Source: Alloacidobacterium dinghuense
Lineage (GTDB): Bacteria > Acidobacteriota > Terriglobia > Terriglobales > Acidobacteriaceae
Direction of reading: 5' to 3'
DNA length: 64,000 nucleotides
NCBI RefSeq assembly: GCF_014274465.1
Contig: NZ_CP060394.1
Coordinates: 5,580,001 to 5,644,000, forward strand
Shown: positions 16,661 through 54,076 of the stretch, in pieces
Layout of the letters: every line of letters starts with the position of its first letter
Numbering within the stretch: position 1 is the stretch's first letter
The notes under the pieces: generated by a model
Database searches by the model: none
What the model was told of the DNA's origin: nothing
The model's input: only the letters and a program-made list of their open reading frames with translations
Made by a program: the position numbers and the translations under genes

Positions 16661-16737
16661 TGGTGGGCCCACCAGGACTCGAACCTGGAACCAAAGCATT
16701 ATGAGTGCTCTGCTCTAACCCATTGAGCTATGGGCCC
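16661..16737 (-). tRNA. tRNA with CAU anticodon (Met or Ile2), copy 1
   Basis: The minus strand folds into a full cloverleaf of 77 nt with encoded CCA. The acceptor stem pairs GGGCCCA with TGGGCCC, the D arm is GCTC/GAGC, the anticodon stem GAGCA/TGCTT encloses loop CTCATAA (anticodon CAT), and the T arm is CCAGG-TTCGAGT-CCTGG. CAU can mean elongator Met or Ile2 (lysidine-modified); sequence alone does not settle it. It is the left copy of a duplicated tRNA locus; the second copy lies at 50672-50748. Confidence 0.95.
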
Positions 16738-16825
16738 TTTATTTCACTCCGGCGCCGCGTTGCCGAAGTCTAGTGTAATGGACCGTAGTCAACCCGTAAT
16801 TGAGCGTAATTTAGGGATTATGAGT
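16661..16825. repeat. left direct repeat of the 34 kb island (tRNA plus 5' flank)
   Basis: This block of about 165 bp (tRNA plus flank ending in GGGATTATGAGT) recurs in the same orientation at 50672-50834 with only a few substitutions and small indels. The repeat stops at the TTATGAG core, which equals the complement of the tRNA anticodon loop. To its right, a 14-base motif at 16795-16808 recurs at 16870-16883, with further variants to about 16920, as expected for recombinase arm sites. Confidence 0.85.
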
Positions 16826-16974
16826 TTCCGGACATCCTTGTAAGTCTATGAAAATAAAGATAATGTGAGCGTAATTGAGCGTAGCCTTAAGCAATTGAGT
16901 GACCGTAATTTAGAGCAATTTATCCAAACAGAGAAAAGCTGATGAGTGTACCGCTGCTGTACCCGGAGGCGTCA

Positions 16975-24685: not shown

Positions 24686-25484
24686 GGCATTGTCAACTTG
24701 CGCACGAAACCTGGAACACTGATGCCATGAAGAGTGACTGCGTTCGATACTCCGGTTATCGTTTCCCTTCCCAGATCATCAGCTATGCGGTGTGGGCTTA
24801 TCATCGCTTCTGCCTGAGTTTCCGGGATGTCGAAGATCTTCTCGCCGAGCGCGGCATCATCGTATCCTATGAAACCATCCGGCAGTGGTGTGAGAAGTTC
24901 GGTCTCGACTATGCTCGGCGATTGAAGCGACGAGAGGGACGGCTGGGCGACCACTGGCACTTGGATGAAGTCTTCATTCGAATCAACGGCCAACAGCGGT
25001 ATTGGTGGCGCGCCGTGGATCAGGACGGTGACGTGATCGACATTCTGGTCCAGCCGCATCGTGATCAGCGCGCCGCAGAGCGATTCTTTCGAAAACTCTT
25101 GCGTGGCCAGGGTTCTGAACCACTACAGATCATTACCGACAAATTGAGAAGATACTCCGCTGCCGTGCGAAGCATCTTCAGCAACGTGACTCACTGTGTG
25201 GAGCGGTACGCCAACAATCGCGTCGAAGCCTCGCATCAGCCGACGCGCCAACGGGAACGGCAAATGCGCCGATTCAAATCTGCCAGGCACGCACAACGTT
25301 TTCTCTCCCTCCATGATGCCGTCCGAAATCTGTTCCGAGTGGGCCGACACTTATTGAGGTCTAGCAATCACCGGCTCCTGCGATCGCGGTCATTCGCGGT
25401 CTGGCGGGAAGTGACCGCGGCCTAAGCGAGCGCAAGACCCGCAGCAGCTCAGAATGTCCCTCAACGTCTTAAGTTGACAATGCC
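24686..25484 (+). mobile_element. IS6 family insertion sequence, intact
   Basis: A 799 bp element is bounded by perfect 14-bp inverted repeats GGCATTGTCAACTT (24686-24699, and inverted at 25471-25484). It contains one transposase gene. Size and terminal sequence fit the IS6 family. The 8 bases flanking each side differ (GCCAAGAC versus GTAACACG), so no target duplication is seen. This suggests recombination or deletion beside the element after insertion. Confidence 0.85.
24727..25425 (+). CDS. IS6 family DDE transposase
   Basis: The 232-residue transposase has the usual N-terminal helix-turn-helix region (SYETIRQWCEKFGLDYARRL) and the DDE triad: Asp80 in WHLDEVF, Asp138 in ITDKLRRY and Glu167 in NNRVEASHQ, with the typical HQPTRQRERQMRRFKS tail. 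The length is normal for IS6 members and no frame damage is seen, so the element may still be active. IS6 elements move replicatively through cointegrates. Confidence 0.93.
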   Translation: MKSDCVRYSGYRFPSQIISYAVWAYHRFCLSFRDVEDLLAERGIIVSYETIRQWCEKFGLDYARRLKRREGRLGDHWHLDEVFIRINGQQRYWWRAVDQDGDVIDILVQPHRDQRAAERFFRKLLRGQGSEPLQIITDKLRRYSAAVRSIFSNVTHCVERYANNRVEASHQPTRQRERQMRRFKSARHAQRFLSLHDAVRNLFRVGRHLLRSSNHRLLRSRSFAVWREVTAA

Positions 25485-26875: not shown

Positions 26876-28270
26876 ATGGAGTCCCTCACGCAACGGAATC
26901 GGGCAAGGGTGAAGAGACGAGTGAATCGGGCAATATCGCTGTGCCGAATTTTGGCTGGACTGACCTTCTTTTGGAGCTTCTTGAGCTCTGCTCAGGACGT
27001 GACGAAGGAGGAACTGGAGCTTTCTCTCGCTGATGCGGTTAAGATTGCCCTGACGAACAACAGGCCGGTGCAGTTGGCCAAACTGGATGTGACCAAGTCC
27101 CTTCTGCAGGTATCCGAAGTCAAAACACGGCGTTTTCCCATGTTCAACACGAATCTGCTCGCTACTGGGGACATCACCTCTCCCGCTTTTACCTTCAAGG
27201 AAGGTTCGTTGGGAACGATCGGAACCACACCTATTCCTACAAAGGACACCCCCATTCCACTCTCACACGGCGTAACAGGGTATGTGATAGCGACTGTGGA
27301 TCAACCGCTCACGCAGCTTTACCAGATACACCTCGCCATCCGGGAACAGGAACTCTCAAGCGATCTGTCAAAGGAGAAGTACAGGGGAAAACAGCAGTCG
27401 ATCGTGGCCGATGTGAAACAGTCGTACTACGCGGTACTTCAAACCGAGAGCGCAATGGACGCGCAGCAGGCATTGGTGAAGCAATATCGGGAGACCGATC
27501 GCCTCGCGACACAATACCTCGCGCAGAAATCCATCCTGAAATCGGACAGCCTCGATGCAAAAGCACAACTGGCACAGGCGCAGCACCAACTCATCACATT
27601 GAGTGACAATCTCGTAACTCAAAAAGAGCACCTGAATGACCTTCTGGGCCGCGACATCGATACTCCTTTTCGTACCCAGCCTGTTCCTCCGGAAACTCCT
27701 CAGGAGCTCGACCTGAAGCAGGCCAGGCAAACGGCCATTGAACAAAGGCCAGAGATTCACGAAGCGAAGATAGATGTCGGTCGTGCGGAGTACGATCTAA
27801 AGCTGGCGAAGTCTCAGTACCTACCCGCAATCGGAGCCGCAGTCCGGTATTTCACGCCGATTAACACCGAGCTGTTGCCGCAAAATATTCTTTCCGCAGG
27901 CCTCGCCATGACTTGGGATCCTTTTGACTGGGGCAGACGCAGAGATGAGGTGAAGGAAAAGGACGTTACGGTGCAGCAAAGCGAAGTTCAACTTGATCAG
28001 GTTCGCTCTCAGATATTACTTGACGTCGACAACACCTTCCGGAAACTCAACGAAAGCCGCTCTCTTCTCGCAGTTGCACAGGCGGCGAGAGACGCAGCGA
28101 ACGAGAAGCTGCATGAAGTAAATGATCAGTTTGCACAATCATCCGTTCTTCTTCGCGATGTCCTGAAGCAGCAGGCCGCCGTCGCAAGCGCCAACCACGA
28201 TTACGAAGAGAGCCTCCTCGCTTTCTGGAACGCAAAGGCGCTTTTCGAGAAGGCTCTAGGTGAGGAGTAA
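26876..28270 (+). CDS. TolC family outer membrane efflux protein
   Basis: The 464-residue protein has a basic N-terminus and hydrophobic signal segment (ILAGLTFFWSFLSSAQ), then the two repeated OEP domains. LSLADAVKIALTNNRPVQ is the usual first helix, DLKQARQTAIEQRPEIHEAK starts the second repeat, and GLAMTWDPFDWGRRRDEV is the beta-barrel strand region. TolC-type proteins form the outer membrane channel of tripartite pumps. It opens an operon with an adaptor (start 4 bp after its stop) and an RND pump. The start codon has only a weak GGAAGGG upstream. Confidence 0.92.
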   Translation: MESLTQRNRARVKRRVNRAISLCRILAGLTFFWSFLSSAQDVTKEELELSLADAVKIALTNNRPVQLAKLDVTKSLLQVSEVKTRRFPMFNTNLLATGDITSPAFTFKEGSLGTIGTTPIPTKDTPIPLSHGVTGYVIATVDQPLTQLYQIHLAIREQELSSDLSKEKYRGKQQSIVADVKQSYYAVLQTESAMDAQQALVKQYRETDRLATQYLAQKSILKSDSLDAKAQLAQAQHQLITLSDNLVTQKEHLNDLLGRDIDTPFRTQPVPPETPQELDLKQARQTAIEQRPEIHEAKIDVGRAEYDLKLAKSQYLPAIGAAVRYFTPINTELLPQNILSAGLAMTWDPFDWGRRRDEVKEKDVTVQQSEVQLDQVRSQILLDVDNTFRKLNESRSLLAVAQAARDAANEKLHEVNDQFAQSSVLLRDVLKQQAAVASANHDYEESLLAFWNAKALFEKALGEE

Positions 28271-28274
28271 AACC

Positions 28275-29408
28275 ATGAGCTGCTCAGTCCCTCAAAGACA
28301 GCTTCGCCTGATGATTCTTGCCTGCTCATTAGCGGCTCTTGCGGGATGTAAGCAGGAAGAGCCTCCAAAGGCTGTGCCCATCCCAGTCGAAACCGCTGTC
28401 GTACAGACGATACCGGCGGGAAGCGGGACGAAGTATTCGGCCAATATCGCGCCTTACGCGCAGGTTGATCTCGCCTTCCAGTCGAACGGCTACATCGACA
28501 GCATCTATCAGGTCCCTAATCCGAGCGGAGGCAGACGCAACGTCGATCAAGGAGACTGGATTCCCAAGGAAACTGTACTTGCGGTGGTAAAGCAACAGAA
28601 TTATCTTGATCGACTACAACAAGCCAAAGCGCAGCTTGCGCGCGCTCAGGCAGAGCACGAAAAGGCCAGACTGAGCTTCGAGCGGGTTTCGGCACTCTAT
28701 GCGACGCAAAGTGCAACTGCACCCGACTACGATTCCGCGAAGGCGCAGCTCGACAGCACCGCAGCTTCTGTCTCCGGAGGAGAGGCGCAGGTTAGCGAAG
28801 CAACAGTGGCTCTCGACAATTGCTTCCTCAAAGCGCCTTTCAGTGGGTGGCTGGTGGCGAGAAACGTCGAACTTGGAAGCCTGGTCGGGCCGGCGACGAA
28901 GGGCTTCACCCTTGCCGACAGCAGTTCGGTGAAGGCAGTCTTCGGAGTTCCGGATACTTACATGAACCGAGTGAGGCTGGGCCAGCATTTTGTCGTTTCG
29001 ACCGATGCACTCCCTCGGCCGTTCGACGGGCGTGTGAGTGCAATCTCTTCATCCGCGGACCAGAAGAGCCGGGTATTCTCAGTCGAAGTAACGATACCCA
29101 ATCCTCGAAACGTGCTGAAGCCAGGAATGATTGCGTCGCTGGCGCTGGAGGGGCAACGTCTGCCGCCGGCGGCGCTGGTAGTTCCCCTGGCAGCAGTAAT
29201 CCGCAATCCGGGACACGTAGATAGCTTCGCCGTCATGATTGCTGAGGGTAATGATGATCTGAAATCAGTGCGGTTAAGACCGATCGAGTTGGGCGACACC
29301 TACGGAAACATGATCGTTGCCAGGTCCGGCGTCGACATAGGAGACAGGGTGATCACGACAGGCGCGAGCTTAGTCAAGGATGGTGACAAAGTGCGTGTAA
29401 GCCCTTAG
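28275..29408 (+). CDS. RND efflux periplasmic adaptor (MFP), lipoprotein
   Basis: The ATG at 28275 is preferred, with GAGGAG 7 bases upstream overlapping the stop region of the TolC-like gene. The 377-residue product starts with a lipoprotein signal ending in the lipobox LAGC, so it is likely anchored to the inner membrane. A lipoyl-like half (DWIPKETVLAVV), a coiled-coil hairpin (about residues 95-170), the returning lipoyl half (LKAPFSGWLVARNVELGSLV) and beta-barrel domains follow in the usual order. It links the RND pump to the outer membrane channel. Confidence 0.92.
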   Translation: MSCSVPQRQLRLMILACSLAALAGCKQEEPPKAVPIPVETAVVQTIPAGSGTKYSANIAPYAQVDLAFQSNGYIDSIYQVPNPSGGRRNVDQGDWIPKETVLAVVKQQNYLDRLQQAKAQLARAQAEHEKARLSFERVSALYATQSATAPDYDSAKAQLDSTAASVSGGEAQVSEATVALDNCFLKAPFSGWLVARNVELGSLVGPATKGFTLADSSSVKAVFGVPDTYMNRVRLGQHFVVSTDALPRPFDGRVSAISSSADQKSRVFSVEVTIPNPRNVLKPGMIASLALEGQRLPPAALVVPLAAVIRNPGHVDSFAVMIAEGNDDLKSVRLRPIELGDTYGNMIVARSGVDIGDRVITTGASLVKDGDKVRVSP

Positions 29409-29447
29409 GACTGGCCTCCGTCGTTCGCATTAACGCACAAAAATGCT

Positions 29448-32400
29448 ATGAGCCATAAGTCTGAAGCCGAATACATTGCCAGAACGAATAACACCGCGCG
29501 CTTTTTCGTCGAACAGCGGCAGCTTTCGCTGATCCTCTTGATTGCGGTGTGCCTATGGGGCTGGTACGGCTACGAGCACATGCCGAAGCGCAAAGATCCA
29601 AGTATTCCTGTGCGCGTGGCAGTGGCGAGCACATCATGGCCTGGCGCAACCGCGCAGGAAGTCGAGCAGCTCGTGACGCGCCCGGTGGAACAGACGATGG
29701 CGCAGAATCCATTCCTCAAACCGCCTGCACCCTCTGAATTTGGGATCCGTTCCATAAGCTTTCCTGGGCTTTCACTCGTCTACGTCCAGCTTGAAGACAG
29801 TGTGACTGATACCAAGAAACAGTTCTCGGACATCAACCTCAAACTGAATGCGCTGAACAATAGACTGCCTCAAGGCGCCGGACCGATCCAGTTCAACAGC
29901 GACTTTGGCGATACCGCCGCTCTTATGCTCACCGTTGCGAGTCCTCCGGCAAGTGAGACCGAAGTCGCCCTTCGCGCTGAATCCATTCGTAAAGCGATTC
30001 TGACGACCCGCTCCGAGGAATCTCCAAAACCCCCGCAGCCCCGCGTCAGCATCATCTACGCATTTCCCCTTACAGTTTCTGCTTCTCTTGTTCGGGATTC
30101 TTTTCGATCCATACTGGAAAGCGCAGTGCCCGGTAAACAGATTGCCGATCCTCACTTCTTTGAGGGAAGTGGTTTTGTTGGCGTTGATATCGCATCTAGT
30201 TTGAGCGACGAGGACTTACGCTCGCTTGGCAAGAAAGTAGCTATGGAAAAGCTTCATAGTTCCGAGATCCATCCCGATGCATGGCCTGCGGTTTTCATTC
30301 GTGATCCCAACGAAACACAAACCAAGCTTGCCGCGGTGGCTGGTGACAAATACTCCTATCGCGACCTGGATAACTTCACCGACCTGATCGGGAGAACACT
30401 GCAAGGCGCAGCGGAGGTTGCCAAGATCGATCGCAAAGGCGTGCTTCAGGAGCAAATATACCTCGATTACTCACAAGAACAGCTCGCCCAATACGGCATG
30501 ACGCCTTCGAACCTGAAAGACATTCTGGGGGCGCGTAACATCACGCTGCCGGGAGGCCAGCTGGAAGTTGGACCCAAAACAATTCTGATCGATCCATCGG
30601 GAAAGTTTACTGGCGCGCAACAGATCGGTGATGTCATTATCGGCACATCCTCTTCCGCCTCGCACAGTCCGGTATATCTACGTGACCTAGTGGATATCTC
30701 ACGTGGCTATCAGAGTCCTGCGAAATATCTGAATTACCTGACTTGGGTTGACAAAGGCGGACAGTGGCATCGCAGCCGTGCCGTGACACTTGCCGTTCAG
30801 GTGAAGGATGATCAGCAGATCGCTGCTTTCGGCGACAGCGTCGACGGAAAGCTTGCCTCAGTAAGGCAGTACATGCCTGACGATCTCATTATTGCGCGCA
30901 CGTCCGATCAGCCACTACAGGTAAAGGAAAATATCGCACTCTTCATGGACTCGCTCTATGAGGCCGTCGCTCTTGTCGTGCTCGTGTCATGGCTCGGCTT
31001 CTGGGAGTGGCGTTCGGCTGTCCTCATGGCCATCTGTATACCGATTACGCTGGCGATGACTTTCGGCACCCTTTATCTGATGGGTGAAGACATTCAACAG
31101 GTGTCCGTAGCCACTCTGATCATCGCCCTCGGTCTGCTGGTCGATGATCCGGTTATCGCGGGTGACTCCATCAAACGTACGCTGGCCGAGGGTCATCCGA
31201 ACATCATTGCCGCATGGCTGGGGCCCACAAAACTTGCAACAGCCATCATGTATGCGACGATCACAAATATCGTCGCGTACTTGCCTTTCCTCATGCTGAC
31301 AGGTAGCACAGGCGAGTTTCTCCACAGCCTGCCGATCGTTATGACCGTTTCCCTGATCTCTTCGCGTCTCGTTTCGATGACGTTTCTTCCATTGCTCGGT
31401 TACTATCTACTGCGTCCCGAGAGGAAAATTGAAAAGTCACTGAAAGAGCGGCGCAAAAGCGGATTCTACGGTTACTACACGCGAATTGCGATGTATTCCA
31501 TCGAGCATCGGTGGAAATTTTTTCTGGCTTCACTGGTATTCCTCGCCACAGGACTTCTCATTTTTTCCAGACTGAAGACCACATTCTTTCCCGAGGATGT
31601 CCAGTATTGGTCCTACATCGACGTCTGGTTGCCGAATGATGCGAACCTGACAACCACCAATCAAACCGCGCTTAAAGTGGAGCAGCTTGTTCGGGAACAG
31701 GCAGCGCGATTCTCTGCGGAGCACTCTCACAATTCCGGTAAACCCGAAGACGTGCTGCGCTATATCACCACTTTCGTCGGCGGCGGTGGTCCTCGCTTTT
31801 GGTTCTCCGCTTCACCTCAAGCGCAGCAGTTGAATTATGCGCAGGTTCTGATCGAGGTCAAGGACAAGGAAACCACTCCGGAATTCATCAAGGAGCTGCA
31901 GCCGGTGTTAAGCGCGACGATTCCCGGTGCGCGAATGGATGCTCGCCAACTCCTGACCAATCCGATGGACTATCCCATAGAGATTCGAATCTCCAGCACT
32001 GCGGACGTGGACGCGCAGCAGGAGCCGAAAGACATTCGTGGACTGCGTGCGATCGCGGACAAGGTCAAAGACATCTTCCGCTCCATCCCCATCGCGGAAC
32101 GCACCCGCGACGAATGGGATCAGGACAGCGCACAGATCGTCTACACCATCGATCCCGATCGGGCTAATCTCGCGGGCGTAACGAACATGGATGTGGCCAA
32201 CTCTTCCACCGCGGGCATCAGTGGGACCACCGTGGCAGTGCTTCAGGAAGGACAGAAGCAAATCCCTGTGGTTGCGCGGCTGCGCATGCAGGAGCGGGCG
32301 CAGCTCTCAGACATTCAGAGCTTGTATGTCTATGCCTCACAGGACAACAACAAGATTCCGCTTGTGCAGATCTCCAGTGTGGGTCATGACCTGATGACTG

Positions 32401-33158
32401 GCCGCATTATCAGGCTGGAACAGTTCCGGACCATCAACGTCCGCAGCTTTCCAGTTGCCGGGCATCTCAGCTCCGAGGTGCTGAGGGAAGCTATGCCTCG
32501 GCTTCGCGAGCTCGAAGCCTCACTTCCGGCTGGCTACCGGATTCAGATCGGCGGCGAATTCGACAAGACGAAGACCGGCTTCAGAAATATGGCGCTGGTC
32601 ATGGGGATCTCCATCGCTGCGGTTTTCCTCGCGCTTGCATTTCAGTTCAAGAATGCCATTAAGCCTCTTCTCGTTCTTGCCGCCGCTCCGTATGGTATGA
32701 TCGGCGCCTTCGCGGCGTTGTGGATCATGCATGAACCGTTCGGATTTATGGCCTTTCTCGGCGTGGCAAGTCTTGTCGGCGTCATCGTGAGCCACTCTAT
32801 TGTTCTTTTCGATTTCATTGAAGAGCGTCACATCGAAGGCGACGATTTCGAACTCGCATTGATTGATGCTGGCATTCTTCGCCTGCGTCCGGTGCTCATC
32901 ACCGTATTCGCAACGGTCCTCGCGCTTGTTCCTCTAGCGATGCATGGTGGGCCCCTCTGGAAGCCGCTCTGCTATGCGCAGATTGGCGGGCTTCTCGTTG
33001 CCACCATCGTTACTAAGCTGCAAGTCCCGGTGATGTATGCAATTTTTGTTCTTGATCTGAAGATTCTGAGGTGGGAGGCCGCTCAGGCTAAGCCTGATAT
33101 CGCTGTGGCAGGTGCGAACCCTGTTTCGCCACACCTTTCAACCCGAGGAATCGAATGA
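29448..33158 (+). CDS. RND family efflux transporter permease (AcrB/CzcA-like), long form
   Basis: At 1236 residues this pump is about 180-200 longer than a standard RND permease. It has an N-terminal transmembrane segment, the porter motif SWPGATAQEVEQLVTRPVEQ, a TM4 proton relay in GLLVDDPVIAGDSI with both aspartates kept, and a second membrane half with FQFKNAIKPLLVLAAAPYGM and FMAFLGVASLVGVIVSHS. The extra length lies in the periplasmic loops. Its substrate class is unclear; it is not obviously a metal pump. It sits 39 bp after the adaptor gene and 37 bp before a small periplasmic protein gene. Confidence 0.93.
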   Translation: MSHKSEAEYIARTNNTARFFVEQRQLSLILLIAVCLWGWYGYEHMPKRKDPSIPVRVAVASTSWPGATAQEVEQLVTRPVEQTMAQNPFLKPPAPSEFGIRSISFPGLSLVYVQLEDSVTDTKKQFSDINLKLNALNNRLPQGAGPIQFNSDFGDTAALMLTVASPPASETEVALRAESIRKAILTTRSEESPKPPQPRVSIIYAFPLTVSASLVRDSFRSILESAVPGKQIADPHFFEGSGFVGVDIASSLSDEDLRSLGKKVAMEKLHSSEIHPDAWPAVFIRDPNETQTKLAAVAGDKYSYRDLDNFTDLIGRTLQGAAEVAKIDRKGVLQEQIYLDYSQEQLAQYGMTPSNLKDILGARNITLPGGQLEVGPKTILIDPSGKFTGAQQIGDVIIGTSSSASHSPVYLRDLVDISRGYQSPAKYLNYLTWVDKGGQWHRSRAVTLAVQVKDDQQIAAFGDSVDGKLASVRQYMPDDLIIARTSDQPLQVKENIALFMDSLYEAVALVVLVSWLGFWEWRSAVLMAICIPITLAMTFGTLYLMGEDIQQVSVATLIIALGLLVDDPVIAGDSIKRTLAEGHPNIIAAWLGPTKLATAIMYATITNIVAYLPFLMLTGSTGEFLHSLPIVMTVSLISSRLVSMTFLPLLGYYLLRPERKIEKSLKERRKSGFYGYYTRIAMYSIEHRWKFFLASLVFLATGLLIFSRLKTTFFPEDVQYWSYIDVWLPNDANLTTTNQTALKVEQLVREQAARFSAEHSHNSGKPEDVLRYITTFVGGGGPRFWFSASPQAQQLNYAQVLIEVKDKETTPEFIKELQPVLSATIPGARMDARQLLTNPMDYPIEIRISSTADVDAQQEPKDIRGLRAIADKVKDIFRSIPIAERTRDEWDQDSAQIVYTIDPDRANLAGVTNMDVANSSTAGISGTTVAVLQEGQKQIPVVARLRMQERAQLSDIQSLYVYASQDNNKIPLVQISSVGHDLMTGRIIRLEQFRTINVRSFPVAGHLSSEVLREAMPRLRELEASLPAGYRIQIGGEFDKTKTGFRNMALVMGISIAAVFLALAFQFKNAIKPLLVLAAAPYGMIGAFAALWIMHEPFGFMAFLGVASLVGVIVSHSIVLFDFIEERHIEGDDFELALIDAGILRLRPVLITVFATVLALVPLAMHGGPLWKPLCYAQIGGLLVATIVTKLQVPVMYAIFVLDLKILRWEAAQAKPDIAVAGANPVSPHLSTRGIE

Positions 33159-40643: not shown

Positions 40644-41919
40644 GGCGGCTGTGCTCCGCAAAAAGTCAAAACGCATATAGAAAGGTGCAACTTCCAAGCA
40701 CCTCGCTACCGTAAACTGTCCCCTGCAATCGGCAGACTTGAATGTGTTACCTCTACAAGAACATGCTTAGGACCGTCCGACTCCTCCGATCAGTGGGTTT
40801 TATCCTTATTAATACAGGCGCACAGGGTATCCAGTTCTTGAGATTGGCCGTTTCTTCCCGGTCTGCGTTGAGCGCTGAGGTGCTGTTCCTTCGCAAGCAG
40901 TTGGCGTTTTATCAAGAACACCAGATACCGCTCCGCAAGCTCACGGACGCAGCGCGATTTTCCTTGGTGTTGTGGTCTCGATTATTCGACTGGTGAGAAG
41001 CGTTGATGATAGTAAAGCCAGAGACCCTAATCGGCTGGCATCGCAAGGGTTTCAAGCTGTTTTGGCGCTGGAGGTCGAGGATGGGAAGACCGCGGATTCC
41101 AGAGAATCTTCGCCGGCTGATCGTAGCAATGGTGCAGGACAATCCGACCTGGGGCGAGGAGCGGGTGGCAGCGGAGCTTTCGGTGAAGCTTGGAATCTTG
41201 GTCTCCCCGCGAACGGTGCGAGCGTATTGGCCGCGAGAAAGTGATCCACGATCTGGGAGGAGAACTTCCTCGCAGCACTGGCGGACGTTTGTCCGCAATC
41301 ACGCCCAGGCCATCGTGGCCGCTGATTTTTTGGTCGCGATCACAGCCGGGTTCCGAGTGCTATACGTGTTCGTGGTAATGGAGGTGGGAAGCCGTCGTAT
41401 TCTGCACTGCAATGTCACGGCTCATCCGACTGCTGGTTGGACGTTGCAGCAGTTCCGCGAAGCCATTCCCAGCGATCATGGGTATCGCTTTCTCATCCAT
41501 GATCGTGACACGATCTTCTCGGCGGAAGTTGACAAGCACTTGCAAGCATTTGGGCTGAAGATTCTGCGCACTCCGGTGCAAGCGCCTAAGGCCAACGCCT
41601 ACTGCGAACGGCTGATGGGAACGATTCGTCGGGAGTGGCTAGACTTTCTTATTCCCTTGAACGAGAAGCACCTGCGAAGGGAACTACGAGAATGGGTGAC
41701 TCACTACAATAGCGGACGCCCCCACTCCAGCCTGGGACCAGGCATTCCGAACTCCCCGGAATATCCACCACGATCCCTGAGAATTCGTCGGCATGAATTG
41801 CCACCCGCTTGCCGGATCAGAATCAAGGACGTTCTCGGTGGACTGCACCATGAATACTGGCTCGAGGAAGTTGCTGCATAAGCCCAGATCGACTTTTTGC
41901 GGATGACAGGGTCACCGCC
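40644..41919 (+). mobile_element. decayed insertion sequence with imperfect inverted ends
   Basis: The transposase pseudogene is bracketed by a perfect 13-bp inverted repeat: TCCGCAAAAAGTC at 40655-40667 and its complement at 41891-41903. Outside these, GGCGG at 40644 and its complement near 41915-41919 suggest the original terminus was about 29 bp, with a 5-bp deletion at the left end. Inner bases do not match. Confidence 0.6.
40742..41881 (+). pseudogene. rve-type (integrase core) transposase, nonsense mutation
   Basis: Positions 40742-41881 form one reading frame except for a TGA at 40994-40996, between VLWSRLFDW and EALMMIVKPETLIGWHRKGF. The family has a charged residue here, so CGA to TGA is the likely change. 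The downstream part has the DDE core: Asp in IVAADFLV, Asp in FLIHDRDTIF and Glu in NAYCERLMGTIRREWLD, then HYNSGRPHSSLG. The full protein would have about 379 residues. Translation restart at 41003 could give only the C-terminal part. Confidence 0.8.
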
Positions 41920-46499: not shown

Positions 46500-46942
46500 C
46501 AAGCTCTGCTGCGTTCGCTCGAAGCCGACCCACTGCTAGCAGCACGGGTCGAGCGATTGATGACGATCCTGCCATCGGCCACGTCACGGCGCTGACCTGG
46601 GTGCTCGAAGTCGGCGAGGTTGAGCGGTTCCACTCCGTCAAGAAGGCCATCAGTTACTGCGGTCTGTGCAGCGGAGAGAAGACCTCGGCCGACAGTTCCA
46701 GACGCATGCCCATCTCCAAGCAGCGCAATCGGCACTTGCAGACGGTGCTGTTGGAGGCCGCGCATCTGGCTCCGAGACTCAACCCGGAGCTGGCCGTTCT
46801 ATACGAGCGCGAAGCCGCGCAGAGCAACTACAACCAGGCTACCATCGCCGTCGCCCGCAAGCTGGCGGCGTACCTTTTGGCCATCGATCGCGGAGAACGT
46901 GCCTTCGTGACTCACCAGGTTCACAGCAGCGTCGCAGCATAA
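46500..46942 (+). pseudogene. IS110 family transposase, C-terminal fragment
   Basis: Two plus frames read as the C-terminal Transposase_20 part of IS110-type enzymes: LEADPLLAARVERLMTI, then after a one-base shift near 46562-46568 GHVTALTWVLEVGEVERF, KKAISYCGLCSGEKTS and SKQRNRHLQTVLLEAAHLAP. It ends at 46942. The N-terminal RuvC-like DEDD part is missing and no clear left end was found. The 390 bases after it, up to the GH13 gene, hold no recognised gene. Confidence 0.82.
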
Positions 46943-50671: not shown

Positions 50672-50748
50672 TGGTGGGCCCACCAGGACTCGAACCTGGA
50701 ACCAAAGCGTTATGAGCACTCTGCTCTAACCGATTGAGCTATGGGCCC
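50672..50748 (-). tRNA. tRNA with CAU anticodon (Met or Ile2), copy 2
   Basis: This is a complete 77-nt cloverleaf on the minus strand with encoded CCA, the same acceptor and T arms as the copy at 16661-16737, and loop CTCATAA. The differences are one D-loop base and three anticodon-stem bases. The stem GAGTG/CGCTT still pairs, with the A-T pair next to the loop replaced by G-C. That compensated change indicates both copies are maintained as working tRNAs. Confidence 0.95.
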
Positions 50749-50834
50749 TTATTTCACTCCGGCGCCGCGTTGCCGAAGTCTAGTGTAATGGACCGTAGTT
50801 AACCATAATTGAGCGTAATTTAGGGATTATGAGT
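50672..50834. repeat. right direct repeat of the 34 kb island (tRNA plus 5' flank)
   Basis: This matches 16661-16825 over the tRNA gene and about 86 bp of its 5' flank, up to GGGATTATGAGT. At the left copy the sequence then leaves for island DNA. Here it continues directly into a second tRNA 5' half, which marks the junction. Confidence 0.85.
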
Positions 50835-50864
50835 CCCCTGCTCTAACCATTGAGCTACCGGCCC
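50822..50864 (-). pseudogene. 5' half of a tRNA(CAU) gene
   Basis: On the minus strand, from 50864, the sequence gives an acceptor 5' strand GGGCCGG, D arm and a complete anticodon arm with loop CTCATAA, then breaks off. The T arm and the acceptor 3' strand are missing. A 34-bp core (50825-50858) recurs exactly at 53382-53415. It is the displaced half of a tRNA split at the anticodon arm. Confidence 0.85.
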
Positions 50865-50890
50865 TTCAATGACTTACAGAATCCCACCCT

Positions 50891-51264
50891 TCAACCAACT
50901 GTAGCGGATAGGCGTCTTGGCTCCAAAGCGGCCTCTGAGCTTCCAAGCTGAAGGCGCTCGAAAGCTCTTTCGACTGCCTCTGGTGTTGGGTGGATGTAGC
51001 GCTGACTGACCACGATGCTACTGTATCCCGCGATACGCATGATGGTGAAAGCATCCACGCCCGACTCTCCAAGCCTTGTAAGCATTGTATGGCGTAGCGA
51101 GTGAAGTACAAAGTCCTTCGGAAGATCGCTCTCCGCTTGCCGTCTACTATCGGGGCACAAGCCTTCCGGCGAAGGTGATTGATCGAAGTCACCAGATAGG
51201 CGTTGCCGTCTCGGTTTGCGAACACGTATGGACTGTTGCTTGTCTCTTTGCGGGTGCGGAGCAT
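50891..51264 (-). pseudogene. tyrosine recombinase/integrase, C-terminal fragment, frameshifted
   Basis: The upstream minus frame reads SPYVFANRDGNAYLVTSINH; after a one-base loss near 51155 the next frame carries the catalytic core HSLRHTMLTRLGESGVDAFT, then IMRIAGYSSIVVSQRYIHPT. The HxxR motif and the nucleophile Tyr in QRYIH are present, with Tyr replacing the usual second His (GHSS to GYSS). The N-terminal DNA-binding domains and the first catalytic Arg region are absent. It lies 26 bp from the split tRNA, where the integrase of an element is expected. It must be inactive. Confidence 0.82.
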
Positions 51265-51308
51265 TGACGACGCTCTATCCGTGAGATAGTACTAAAATCT
51301 AGTAAGAC

Positions 51309-51321
51309 GTCTGAGTATCAG
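51309..51321 (-). promoter_or_regulatory. putative integrase arm site, left end of satellite element
   Basis: GTCTGAGTATCAG at this position is the exact inverse complement of the 13-mer at 53236-53248 near the other end of the element. It lies just upstream of the integrase remnant. Confidence 0.5.
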
Positions 51322-51533
51322 GCGCAAGGGAATCGGTGGAGCAACCGAGTGAACAAGCGAAGAAGAAGAGAGCCGGAAACCTGAACATTTCTTAACACTC
51401 AGCTCCTTTTTCGGCCTCCACGACCCGCACGTTCACAGCAACGCAACTTCAACGCAAACCGGCCAAGGCTAAGCAGCAATTGAATAATTGAAATAATTGA
51501 ATAACAAGGTATCCTCAATCGCGGGAGGATTCT

Positions 51534-52100
51534 ATGCGCTTCACTGGGGTGGTTGCTGTGGCTCTCCTGCTTTCCCCGATCGCTTTGTCCCAAACGTCGG
51601 ATTCAAACCGCACGGGCGTCTCGCCGTCGGTCAATGTGACTCCTTCCGGGCCTCAAGTGCAATCCCCCGCTGCCCAAACCCCGCAGCCGCCGAGCTACGC
51701 AAACTACTCAATCATGTTGGTAAACCCCGCCCCGGGCGGTGGCGCGGTTGTTCTAATGCACAACCCAAGCAACAGCCTTGAATATGTTCCCGTTGGCGAT
51801 ACAAGGGATGCGCTCGCTAAGGGCTATGTCGCTGTTCGAGCCGTAGAACTTGATGAACTAATTGGCGCGTTGCGGGAAGAAAATACGCGGCTTGTTGTCG
51901 AGAACAACCGTTTACAGAATGCGTCCCGTTCTGCTGTCCCATCTCAAGCCGACCTAGCAGCGCAACAGAATGCTTTTAAGCGGCAACAAATGATTCAGAC
52001 TTGGCTAACGCTGCAGAATATGAACCGGCCACAAACACAGAACCTAAACGTCACCGTATCGGACTGCACACGGCAACCCGCTTTGTGCGCGGGGAGATAG
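51534..52100 (+). CDS. secreted coiled-coil protein, unknown function
   Basis: The 188-residue product has a signal peptide (FTGVVAVALLLSPIALSQ), a Ser/Pro/Gln-rich segment, a short conserved-looking part (YSIMLVNPAPGGGAVVLMHN), then a coiled coil (ELDELIGALREENTRLVVEN) and a Gln/Asn-rich tail with two cysteines near the end. A strong GGGAGG ribosome-binding site precedes the ATG. It is one of only two intact genes in the small tRNA-flanked element. No family is recognised. Confidence 0.7.
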   Translation: MRFTGVVAVALLLSPIALSQTSDSNRTGVSPSVNVTPSGPQVQSPAAQTPQPPSYANYSIMLVNPAPGGGAVVLMHNPSNSLEYVPVGDTRDALAKGYVAVRAVELDELIGALREENTRLVVENNRLQNASRSAVPSQADLAAQQNAFKRQQMIQTWLTLQNMNRPQTQNLNVTVSDCTRQPALCAGR

Positions 52101-52222
52101 ATAGGTGTCCCCAAATTATCGCTAAATGCAGGAAAAGGACTTACCTGAGAAACAGCCAGAAAATAGATACTAACGCGATCCCATATGAGGACGTGATAGT
52201 TTATGAAGTCACGGACGAGAGC

Positions 52223-53050
52223 CTATGTCCATGCCTGATCGAACATTTTTAGCTGGGAAGTTGACCAAGTACTAGGTCTCCCCCTTTTAAGTAGATTTGC
52301 TTTAGTCGCTAATCCAATGATGTGTCTATCTATCAACCCGACTCCCACAGATCGGCCAACCTGCGCTTTCACCTCTGCGACAAATTCCGCTGTAACTATG
52401 TCGCCCCGCATTAAGCGTACATAGCTTCTCTGGCAGACGCTCGCTAGTAAGTCTGCGGACTGAATGGCAGGCGACTTTTGGTCGCACATTTCGGTCAGTG
52501 AACCCATAAATTTAGCGCAATTTGGGTTTCCTTTCTTGAGTGCTTCATAACCTGCGTGTAGCTGCTTAAACTTATCGTGGTGGTCACAGAGAAACGCTAC
52601 AGTCTCCGGTTTCTTCATTTTTGCTACCTCGCAAGCGATCCTAACCAGCAATAGCTGATATGCGAAAAGGTATGGATCGCGAGGTAACACAGAGCGAGTC
52701 CTAGAGCTCTTCCGCGAATCTCTGTGATCTTTAAGATCGATTACAAGAACAAATCCAATGAGATCGGATGAACGAAGTATGCATGCCAAATCGTCAAAAA
52801 CCTCATCTGCTTTCTTGCGACCACTTCCGTCTGGATAAGCCTTTTCGTCCCTAAACCTACGGAATTGCTTGCTTAAGGACAGACACTCGCTGCTCTTGAA
52901 GTAGTCGATGGAGTCCCTATCTAGTCTCCATTGCCAATGACGCTCAACATCTGTCCAAATAGTCTGTTGAGATAACCAACCAGCGATAACGAAAGCGTGA
53001 TTTCGCTCACGGTCATTACTTTCGTCAATCGCCGACCAAAGAAAACCCAT
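52223..53050 (-). CDS. DUF3800 domain protein
   Basis: The 275-residue protein begins LWSAIDESND, the acidic start (Asp9-Glu10) typical of DUF3800, and later has VAFLCDHHDKF and PAIQSADLLASVCQRSYVRL, the family's C-terminal acidic site. DUF3800 proteins are thought to have an RNase H-like fold and are frequent on phages, plasmids and islands, where some lie in defence loci. Role here unknown. The location inside a tRNA-bounded element fits a mobile accessory gene. Confidence 0.82.
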   Translation of the reverse strand: MGFLWSAIDESNDRERNHAFVIAGWLSQQTIWTDVERHWQWRLDRDSIDYFKSSECLSLSKQFRRFRDEKAYPDGSGRKKADEVFDDLACILRSSDLIGFVLVIDLKDHRDSRKSSRTRSVLPRDPYLFAYQLLLVRIACEVAKMKKPETVAFLCDHHDKFKQLHAGYEALKKGNPNCAKFMGSLTEMCDQKSPAIQSADLLASVCQRSYVRLMRGDIVTAEFVAEVKAQVGRSVGVGLIDRHIIGLATKANLLKRGRPSTWSTSQLKMFDQAWT

Positions 53051-53149
53051 ATGTCTTTCTTACGCAATCTATCTCCGATACTGCCAGCATAAATCCGTCA
53101 GTCTCATCCAAAAGATTAACGCGTTAAGCAGTAAGAGGACAGAGTGCAC

Positions 53150-53310
53150 ATCCCTGCCTCCGAGCAGGCTGGTAACAGGCAGCGAAACATCCGATACTAA
53201 GACAGCTAGGTATCATACTAGCAGGCTGAAAACAGCTGATACTCAGACATCTTATGTAGCGGATACTGTACCGGCTACCGCGATAGATCGGCTTGTATCT
53301 GACAGGATGA
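53150..53310. repeat. cluster of short repeats at the right end of the satellite element
   Basis: The 330-base gap before the tRNA half contains repeated words: AGCAGGCTG twice (about 53154 and 53219), GATACTAAGAC and GATACTCAGAC, then GATACTG, and the inverted GTATCTGACAGG. The 13-mer CTGATACTCAGAC (53236-53248) matches the inverse of 51309-51321. Spacing and location fit integrase or excisionase arm sites. No gene is seen here. Confidence 0.55.
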
Positions 53311-53380
53311 AGCGAGTCTAAGTTGCAGGGAATCAAGGCCTATGAGAATGGGTACGAATCAGCCTAAAGAGTCCTCTATA

Positions 53381-53421
53381 AGATTATGAGTCCCCTGCTC
53401 TAACCATTGAGCTACAGGCCC
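53381..53421 (-). pseudogene. 5' half of a tRNA(CAU) gene, right boundary of element
   Basis: From 53421 on the minus strand the sequence runs GGGCCTG, D arm and anticodon arm with CTCATAA, then stops matching a tRNA after ATAATCT. Its 34-bp core equals 50825-50858. It likely marks the original chromosomal tRNA cut by integration, since ordinary chromosomal genes follow to the right. Confidence 0.82.
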
Positions 53422-53569: not shown

Positions 53570-54076
53570 TCAAATTACCTCGGCAGCATTTTCCCAGAAT
53601 TGAAAGGTGCGTGGCGTAATGCGAGTGCGGTTGTTCTGGTAAATCTCCGCCAAGGCATGGAAGAGGGCAGATGATTCAGCGGTTAATCCAAGCAAGCGAA
53701 GGGAGCGAAGCATGCGCGTCAAGCGCAGATGGTTATGGTTTCCTGGGCTGAGCCAATTGGAAGATCGTGCAGCGAAATCAGGCCCTTGTCTTACGGCTCC
53801 TCCCTCAAAGGCCAGCCCGTAGAAGTGGAGCATGCGCAGAAACGATTGTCTGAGCCGCTGCTGTAAATCCTCGGACCGGTGAAAGTCCTCGATGGTTATT
53901 ACATCAAGGACTGGCGCGCAGGGGTTGGCGCCGCTTCTTTCAGGCAGAGGAAAAAGCCACTGGATGAAATCGTGGACCGCCTCCAATTCCGAGTCGGGCC
54001 AGTCAAGAATTTCATCCAGAGTGCGGCCTTCGTCATCGCGGCCGCCTCGATAAAACTCAAGAATCTTGTCGCTCAT
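53570..54076 (-). CDS. opioid growth factor receptor (OGFr)-like domain protein
   Basis: The 168-residue protein matches the conserved region of the OGFr family: ILEFYRGGRDDEGRTLDEIL, LEAVHDFIQWLFPLPE, and helical repeats up to TPRTFQFWENAA. The domain is found in animals and scattered bacteria, with no known bacterial function. Length matches bacterial single-domain members. It begins 15 bp after the YeiH-like gene on the same strand and could be co-transcribed with it and the LysR gene. Confidence 0.85.
   Translation of the reverse strand: MSDKILEFYRGGRDDEGRTLDEILDWPDSELEAVHDFIQWLFPLPERSGANPCAPVLDVITIEDFHRSEDLQQRLRQSFLRMLHFYGLAFEGGAVRQGPDFAARSSNWLSPGNHNHLRLTRMLRSLRLLGLTAESSALFHALAEIYQNNRTRITPRTFQFWENAAEVI

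Follow-up and report, generated by a model that had tools for sequence, protein, structure and literature searches.

The islands catalogued by Islander integrate into tRNA genes by means of an attP site that holds a tRNA fragment, which regenerates the split gene (Hudson et al., PMC4383910). A 5′ fragment was found in 159 of the 3919 islands (PMC4383910), in agreement with a first-pass annotation of the DNA studied here, which had called 5′ halves unusual and 3′ halves the norm. The tycheposons of Prochlorococcus (PMC10872708) resemble the islands described below in being cargo islands at tRNA genes, including tRNA-Met(CAT), and in using a tyrosine recombinase.

We analyzed a window of 64,000 nucleotides from Alloacidobacterium dinghuense (bases 5580001-5644000 of its single-contig 6.27 Mb genome, 99.99% complete), and compared it with other Acidobacteriaceae. 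Very probably, two kinds of element, X and then Y, used the anticodon loop of the native tRNA-Ile2 gene, the second of which substitutes a whole tRNA for it. X and the elements of genomes G140, G117, G088 and G116 are similar to the 5′-fragment islands of Islander, in that a 5′ half is carried and a 5′ fragment displaced. Unlike those islands generally, the integrase genes of the X family stop 0-44 bp before the tRNA, so that the upstream sequence of the tRNA is the 3′ end of the integrase gene. Y shares with the Islander islands the crossover in the anticodon loop, a displaced tRNA fragment and the tandem arrays and, to judge from G069, a tyrosine integrase with arm sites. However, those islands restore the gene by the attP fragment. 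The attP of Y has a spacer followed by a different tRNA in complete form, and leaves the native gene split.

Conventional cousins of Y were found in the same integrase family. In viral contigs (L267-L274), the free phage attP consists of the core, a tRNA 3′ half, GGTACA arms and the integrase. In Edaphobacter modestus, the beginning of such an integrase lies behind an intact tRNA of the alpha version (defined below); 25 kb further on there is a POP′ site with an island tRNA. These cousins have the same integrase family, GGTACA arms and order of tRNA, arms and integrase as Y, and those of Acidobacteriaceae share its P arm as well. Compared to their attP of core and 3′ half, that of Y has the core and a whole tRNA; Y thus looks conventional in design, except that a spacer plus whole tRNA has taken the place of the 3′ half. 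The R-type tRNAs in viral contigs were rejected as members of the same family, as they have other T arms and upstream sequence.

The two 5′ halves and their identity

An exact 34-bp repeat of a tRNA 5′ half at both ends of a 2.6 kb unit, as reported in the first-pass annotation, is confirmed, with no base differing between 50825-50858 and 53382-53415. By chance, ~7e-12 such pairs would be expected in 64 kb. Both extend to ~40-bp 5′ halves on the minus strand, running from the acceptor strand to the anticodon loop:

50825-50864, minus strand: half1, reading GGGCCGGTAGCTC...CTCATAAT; the 5′ half putatively brought by X, later the left half-site (B) for Y
53382-53421, minus strand: half2, reading GGGCCTGTAGCTC...CTCATAATC; 5′ half of the native tRNA-Ile2(CAU), the outer border beside the conserved chromosomal flank

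The two halves are 98% identical (~39/40 bases), and no 3′ half follows either of them. The flank gene at 53570-54076 and the genes beyond are syntenic in G002 and partly in G001. An intact copy of this version is absent genome-wide; a pattern with three mismatches allowed matched only these two places, indicating that the parent gene of the halves is gone. In relatives the parent tRNA is intact as GGGCCTGTAGCTCAATGGTTAGAGCAGGGGACTCATAATCCCTTGGTTGGGGGTTCGAATCCCTCCGGGCCCACCA and close variants, hereafter termed alpha. Half2 is identical at 40/40 positions to the 5′ halves of intact tRNA(CAU) genes in G140 and G099.

ARAGORN prints these genes as tRNA-Met, an identity that was ruled out because the closest match is an annotated tRNA-Ile with CAU. 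The E. coli tRNA-Ile with the CAU anticodon is the best relative of alpha (81.6% identity) and also of the island tRNA described below, in contrast to another CAU tRNA of the host genome, which is closest to tRNA-Met. The C4-G69 and C5-G68 pairs, which are determinants for TilS, are present in the tRNA-Ile2(CAU) genes. Judged by their sequence, the halves and the island tRNAs are of the tRNA-Ile2(CAU) type, not Met.

The 2.6 kb unit between the halves

The segment bounded by half1 and half2 contains the following features:

50865-53381, no strand assigned: X remnant of 2.5 kb, of the integrase-upstream, 5′-half-carrying kind, with its parts arranged as in the 9.2 kb G140 element
50891-51160, minus strand: tyrosine integrase of which a C-terminal part remains (match to PF00589 at profile positions 120-170, E 9.6e-9)
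51534-52100: signal-peptide-like ORF inside the X remnant
52223-53050: ORF resembling DUF3800, sub-threshold, inside the X remnant

The broken tyrosine integrase noticed earlier beside the first half is therefore real. Its stop codon lies ~26 bp upstream of half1, it is the only PF00589 match in the array region, and it is 44% identical to the C-terminus of the G140 integrase. The two ORFs claimed as cargo are present, but the DUF3800 match reaches 18.5 bits against a cut-off of 21, and the putative secreted protein matched no Pfam family.

Full-length integrases, as the first-pass annotation proposed to look for, were found in relatives, where they read into a tRNA 5′ end. The 9.2 kb element of G140 consists of a 5′ half, cargo, an intact 374-aa integrase and a second 5′ half; the integrase stops 33 bp before this tRNA-Ile2 5′ half, and the other 5′ half lies 9.2 kb upstream. 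Analogues of X in intact form were found in G117, G088 and G116 as well. Among 30 loci of the X integrase family that were read, there are 14 in which the integrase gene ends 0-44 bp before an intact tRNA or a 5′ half (Ile2 in these four genomes, various Leu, Lys and Thr tRNAs elsewhere); the others have the usual order of tRNA, then integrase. The G140 relative and the 14 loci place the 2.6 kb unit, in decayed form, in a class of elements that bring a 5′ half for their target, and it is best read as a decayed element with its integrase reading into the tRNA 5′ half. As in a 5′-fragment island, a 5′ fragment is displaced upstream (half2) and the element supplies a 5′ half (half1); of a functional integrase only the C-terminal remnant is left. 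In view of the intact relatives and the Islander counts, the 5′-half mode is rare but not new, and the unit is a remnant of a known but rare kind.

The earlier description as a stripped mobile element beside a larger island at the same tRNA holds for a stripped integrative element and larger islands. The term satellite is not borne out, as the integrase is broken and a second copy of the unit was not found in the host genome. A satellite still mobilized in trans by the integrase of another element, instead of a dead remnant, would fit with the ~39/40 identical bases retained at the ends and with a 2.6 kb 5′-half unit of other cargo at the same tRNA in G043; yet the unit here is single-copy, its integrase remnant is broken and half1 is now fused to the Y junction, so that we consider this unlikely and favor a decayed remnant. 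The G043 unit (L129 12854-15463) has a decayed alpha 5′ half on one side and an intact alpha gene on the other, carries a PAS histidine kinase, and has the same ~70 bp upstream of both tRNA copies.

Island tRNAs and the junctions of Y

The array that adjoins half1 has the following features, in which the bit scores of the three island tRNAs are covariance scores:

50826-50833, minus strand: CTCATAAT core, the shared crossover region of the BOP′ junction, from alignment of BOP′, POB′ and POP′ sites
50749-50825, minus strand: P′ spacer of Y, ~77 bp, with TTACG-type repeats and a -10-like TACACT
50672-50748, minus strand: putative element-borne whole tRNA-Ile2(CAU), copy 1, at the start of island Y1; anticodon stem GAGTG/CGCTT, 69.0 bits
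16825-50671, no strand assigned: body of island Y1, ~34 kb between the cores at 50833 and 16824
16825-16959, minus strand: conserved P arm at the far end of Y1, with GGTACA and TTACG motifs
16738-16824, minus strand: CTCATAAT core and P′ spacer of Y2, an attP-like POP′ junction between tandem elements
16661-16737, minus strand: putative element-borne whole tRNA-Ile2(CAU), copy 2; anticodon stem GAGCA/TGCTT, 73.5 bits
5575024-5575100 of the genome, left of the window: putative element-borne tRNA-Ile2(CAU), copy 3, with a damaged T arm (mismatches); 55.8 bits

The three island tRNA genes span 58 kb of the host genome, each preceded by the same core and spacer at 92-95% identity; the P′ spacer of copy 1 is 93-95% identical to those of the other two. 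Copy 1 reads GGGCCCATAGCTC...GAGTG-CTCATAA-CGCTT...TTCCAGG..., which is a beta-type body with an unusual anticodon stem. No integrase is left in the three Y copies of the host genome. Island Y1 also harbors transposase-like ORFs, recognized by eye (window 24727-25425, 41003-41881 and 46601-46942), beside an efflux operon (window 26876-33158).

Five CAU tRNAs are encoded in the host genome: one initiator-like, one Met-like and three island-type. No native Ile2 gene survives there, all three Ile2 genes being island-type, and the native tRNA-Ile2 persists only as half1 and half2. Neither the native 3′ half nor the attR of the last Y was found in the host genome, and a BLAST search of it with the 3′ half of G003 matched only whole tRNAs, including the tRNA-Trp at 5395895. 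With TilS encoded and AUA making up 114 of the 24,831 codons that were sampled, decoding of this codon would rest on the island-type genes.

Comparison across the family gave the attP layout of Y as P arm, CTCATAAT core, 75-80 bp spacer, complete tRNA, arm sites and integrase. BOP′ junctions (native 5′ half, core, spacer and whole tRNA, at a distance of 77-81 bp) occur in the host genome, G002, G069, G101, G074 and KBS 146. POB′ junctions (P arm, core and native tRNA 3′ half) occur in G069, G042, G144 (C32:11207) and G002, the outer halves of which are on different contigs, several relatives being draft assemblies. POP′ junctions (P arm, core, spacer and whole tRNA), as would be expected where two elements meet in tandem or where one has closed into a free circle, occur twice in the host genome and in E. 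modestus, palsa_421, G144 and G191. Of 398 family genomes, 27 have the P arm, and these belong to 14 genera. It adjoins an Ile2 3′ half, a Leu 3′ half, or a spacer plus whole tRNA-Ile2. An intact tyrosine integrase in the Y layout is present only in G069; in E. modestus, palsa_421 and KBS 146, ORF reading and HMM search found no integrase next to the POP′ or BOP′ copies.

Members of the same P arm family at L281, L288, L289, L301, L302 and L304 end in tRNA-Leu 3′ halves with the core CTCAAAAT, indicating that the integrase family targets the anticodon loops of several tRNAs. In addition, a Y element of ~3.9 kb lies between a POP′ site and a P arm with alpha 3′ half (L134 7168-11207, G144:C32); it has no integrase and could be mobilized in trans.

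The clearest single case is G069. In the sense direction, its native 5′ half is separated by 79 bp from a whole tRNA, after which come an intact 376-aa integrase, ~22 kb of cargo, the P arm and the native 3′ half. Put together, the two outer halves give a tRNA of 77 bases that is identical at 77/77 positions to the intact gene of the congener G142, and the same large outer-membrane-type gene adjoins the tRNA of both genomes as upstream neighbor. The split target therefore flanks the element, with G142 as the empty site. By contrast, the inner whole tRNA differs from the outer-half tRNA in the anticodon stem. Together, these observations indicate that the island inserted at the anticodon loop of the native gene, with another, complete tRNA inside it. 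The P′ spacer of G069 differs from the TTACG type. Among the cargo of this island (L133 2705-5766 and L132 5060-8257), a HamA protein (PF08878) and the DEAD-box helicase next to it make up a Hachiman-like defence pair, and there is a 1065-aa SNF2/ResIII-type helicase protein.

The first-pass annotation had treated the neighboring intact tRNA at 50672-50748 as an ordinary target. At the level of sequence it is instead an element-borne substitute and not a restored native gene; its anticodon stem is different, and it occurs in three copies over 58 kb. Ordinary tandem tRNA islands, in which the intact tRNA is native and repaired by a fragment and the 5′ halves derive only from 5′-fragment islands, would draw on a known class, and X-type elements are common in Acidobacteriaceae. 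However, G069 and G144 have a whole tRNA between attL and attR with outer halves of another allele, and in alpha hosts the 3′ half of the intact tRNA is foreign too, which makes this explanation very unlikely. Indeed, in hosts with an alpha-type native gene (the host genome, KBS 146, G101 and G144) the inner tRNA has a beta-type 3′ half and is thus foreign along its whole length.

The same foreign 3′ half counts against a mini-element of ~117 bp (spacer plus new 5′ half) in a beta-type tRNA, where the intact tRNA would combine a new 5′ half with the old 3′ half and no whole gene would be carried. The constant spacing (77-81 bp) fits such an element, X elements do carry a promoter plus 5′ half, and it may be the route by which Y arose; but it fails for the POP′ sites as well, which have the P arm in place of a 5′ half, and we regard it as highly improbable. 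Decayed tRNA copies do occur (copy 3 and a second copy in KBS 146), as simple tandem duplication and decay of the tRNA gene without site-specific recombination would predict. This explanation deserves hardly any credence, as in many genera a conserved P arm meets native 3′ halves at one and the same core, the integrase adjoins the sites, and POB′/BOP′ pairs contradict it. We therefore retain Y as a carrier of a whole tRNA.

Probable replacement of the native gene and its implications

Comparison of relatives supports a replacement at one and the same site. Upstream of the tRNA, both KBS 146 and E. modestus have the sequence TGCGACACTGAAAAGACCG, which is followed by intact alpha in E. modestus and by a decayed alpha 5′ half and then the island tRNA in KBS 146. 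Alpha follows GATGCATTTACAATCATGAA in G003. G001, a genus-mate of the host, has the near-identical motif GATGCATTTACAATAATGAA and then the spacer and island tRNA, the half having been deleted. In G090 a beta tRNA comes after a decayed alpha half, an arrangement that hints that beta may once have replaced alpha. A second, decayed copy of spacer and island tRNA in KBS 146 (L253 1501-1626; 1.115 Mb) lies far from the first and suggests an insertion at another place or a rearrangement. An intact alpha tRNA in G003 (L057 7055-7130, G003:C352) has two mismatches in the anticodon stem, GGTTA/TCCCT, which may reflect decay, a hybrid gene or an assembly error.

At stem position 30, the cassette-borne tRNAs examined have a pyrimidine, except in G090, the inner tRNA of which has a native-type beta stem. 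Native tRNAs have a purine, all but one, the exception being the mismatched stem of G003; pairing is kept. None of the P-arm sites read joins the P arm to an island-type 3′ half. As the stem flanks the crossover region, a changed stem may stop the integrase from splitting the substitute tRNA, and the changed anticodon stem may thus confer att-site immunity, though the sample is small. That the changed stem is exclusive to cassettes was ruled out by L181, L183 and L184, which carry it without a recognizable cassette; the stem alone does not define Y.

We propose that an X-type element, with an integrase reading into its carried promoter and 5′ half, would have integrated first, leaving the native 5′ half at the far end (half2) and a restored gene at the near end (half1 plus the native 3′ half), and would then have decayed to 2.6 kb. 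A Y-type element would have recombined at the same CTCATAAT core in half1, splitting the restored gene permanently and bringing a complete tRNA-Ile2 ~77 bp inside the P′ arm, with its own upstream sequence and changed anticodon stem. Because Y carries a complete tRNA-Ile2, AUA decoding could continue from the island copy. Further Y elements (copies 2 and 3) would have stacked in tandem, and the loss of the native 3′ half would have left only island-derived Ile2 genes in the host genome. We infer this order of events, together with active recombination and excision; likewise, the carried tRNA would be expressed, modified with lysidine and functional. As for the origin of Y, we speculate that an X-type element with promoter and 5′ half might have inserted into a restored tRNA, shrunk to ~77 bp and excised via the outer core.

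It is possible, if somewhat doubtful, that Y replaces rather than repairs, its own allele being substituted for good, with a stem that is unlike the att core-binding arms and resists splitting, and a host that becomes island-dependent; native Ile2 genes would then perhaps be former island copies (alpha to beta to island allele). In a full-text literature search, no island was found to be described with a complete tRNA as a replacement, an absence that is weak evidence given the poor coverage of subscription papers. As far as the searched literature shows, substitution of a whole essential tRNA gene instead of its repair appears to be undescribed.

Very probably, islands of soil Acidobacteriaceae split the essential Ile2 tRNA gene and bring a slightly different complete copy, leaving some hosts with the island-derived gene only. 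This would be a second solution to the problem of tRNA-targeting elements, that of integrating without killing the host. It would explain the complete turnover of an essential tRNA gene by horizontal transfer, with the island becoming indispensable, as well as the accumulation of orphan tRNA 5′ halves. Island finders that look for a restored gene together with a single fragment would set the borders of such elements wrongly or discard the close 5′ fragment. Moreover, the carried anticodon stem would offer a direct test of tRNA-encoded att-site immunity.
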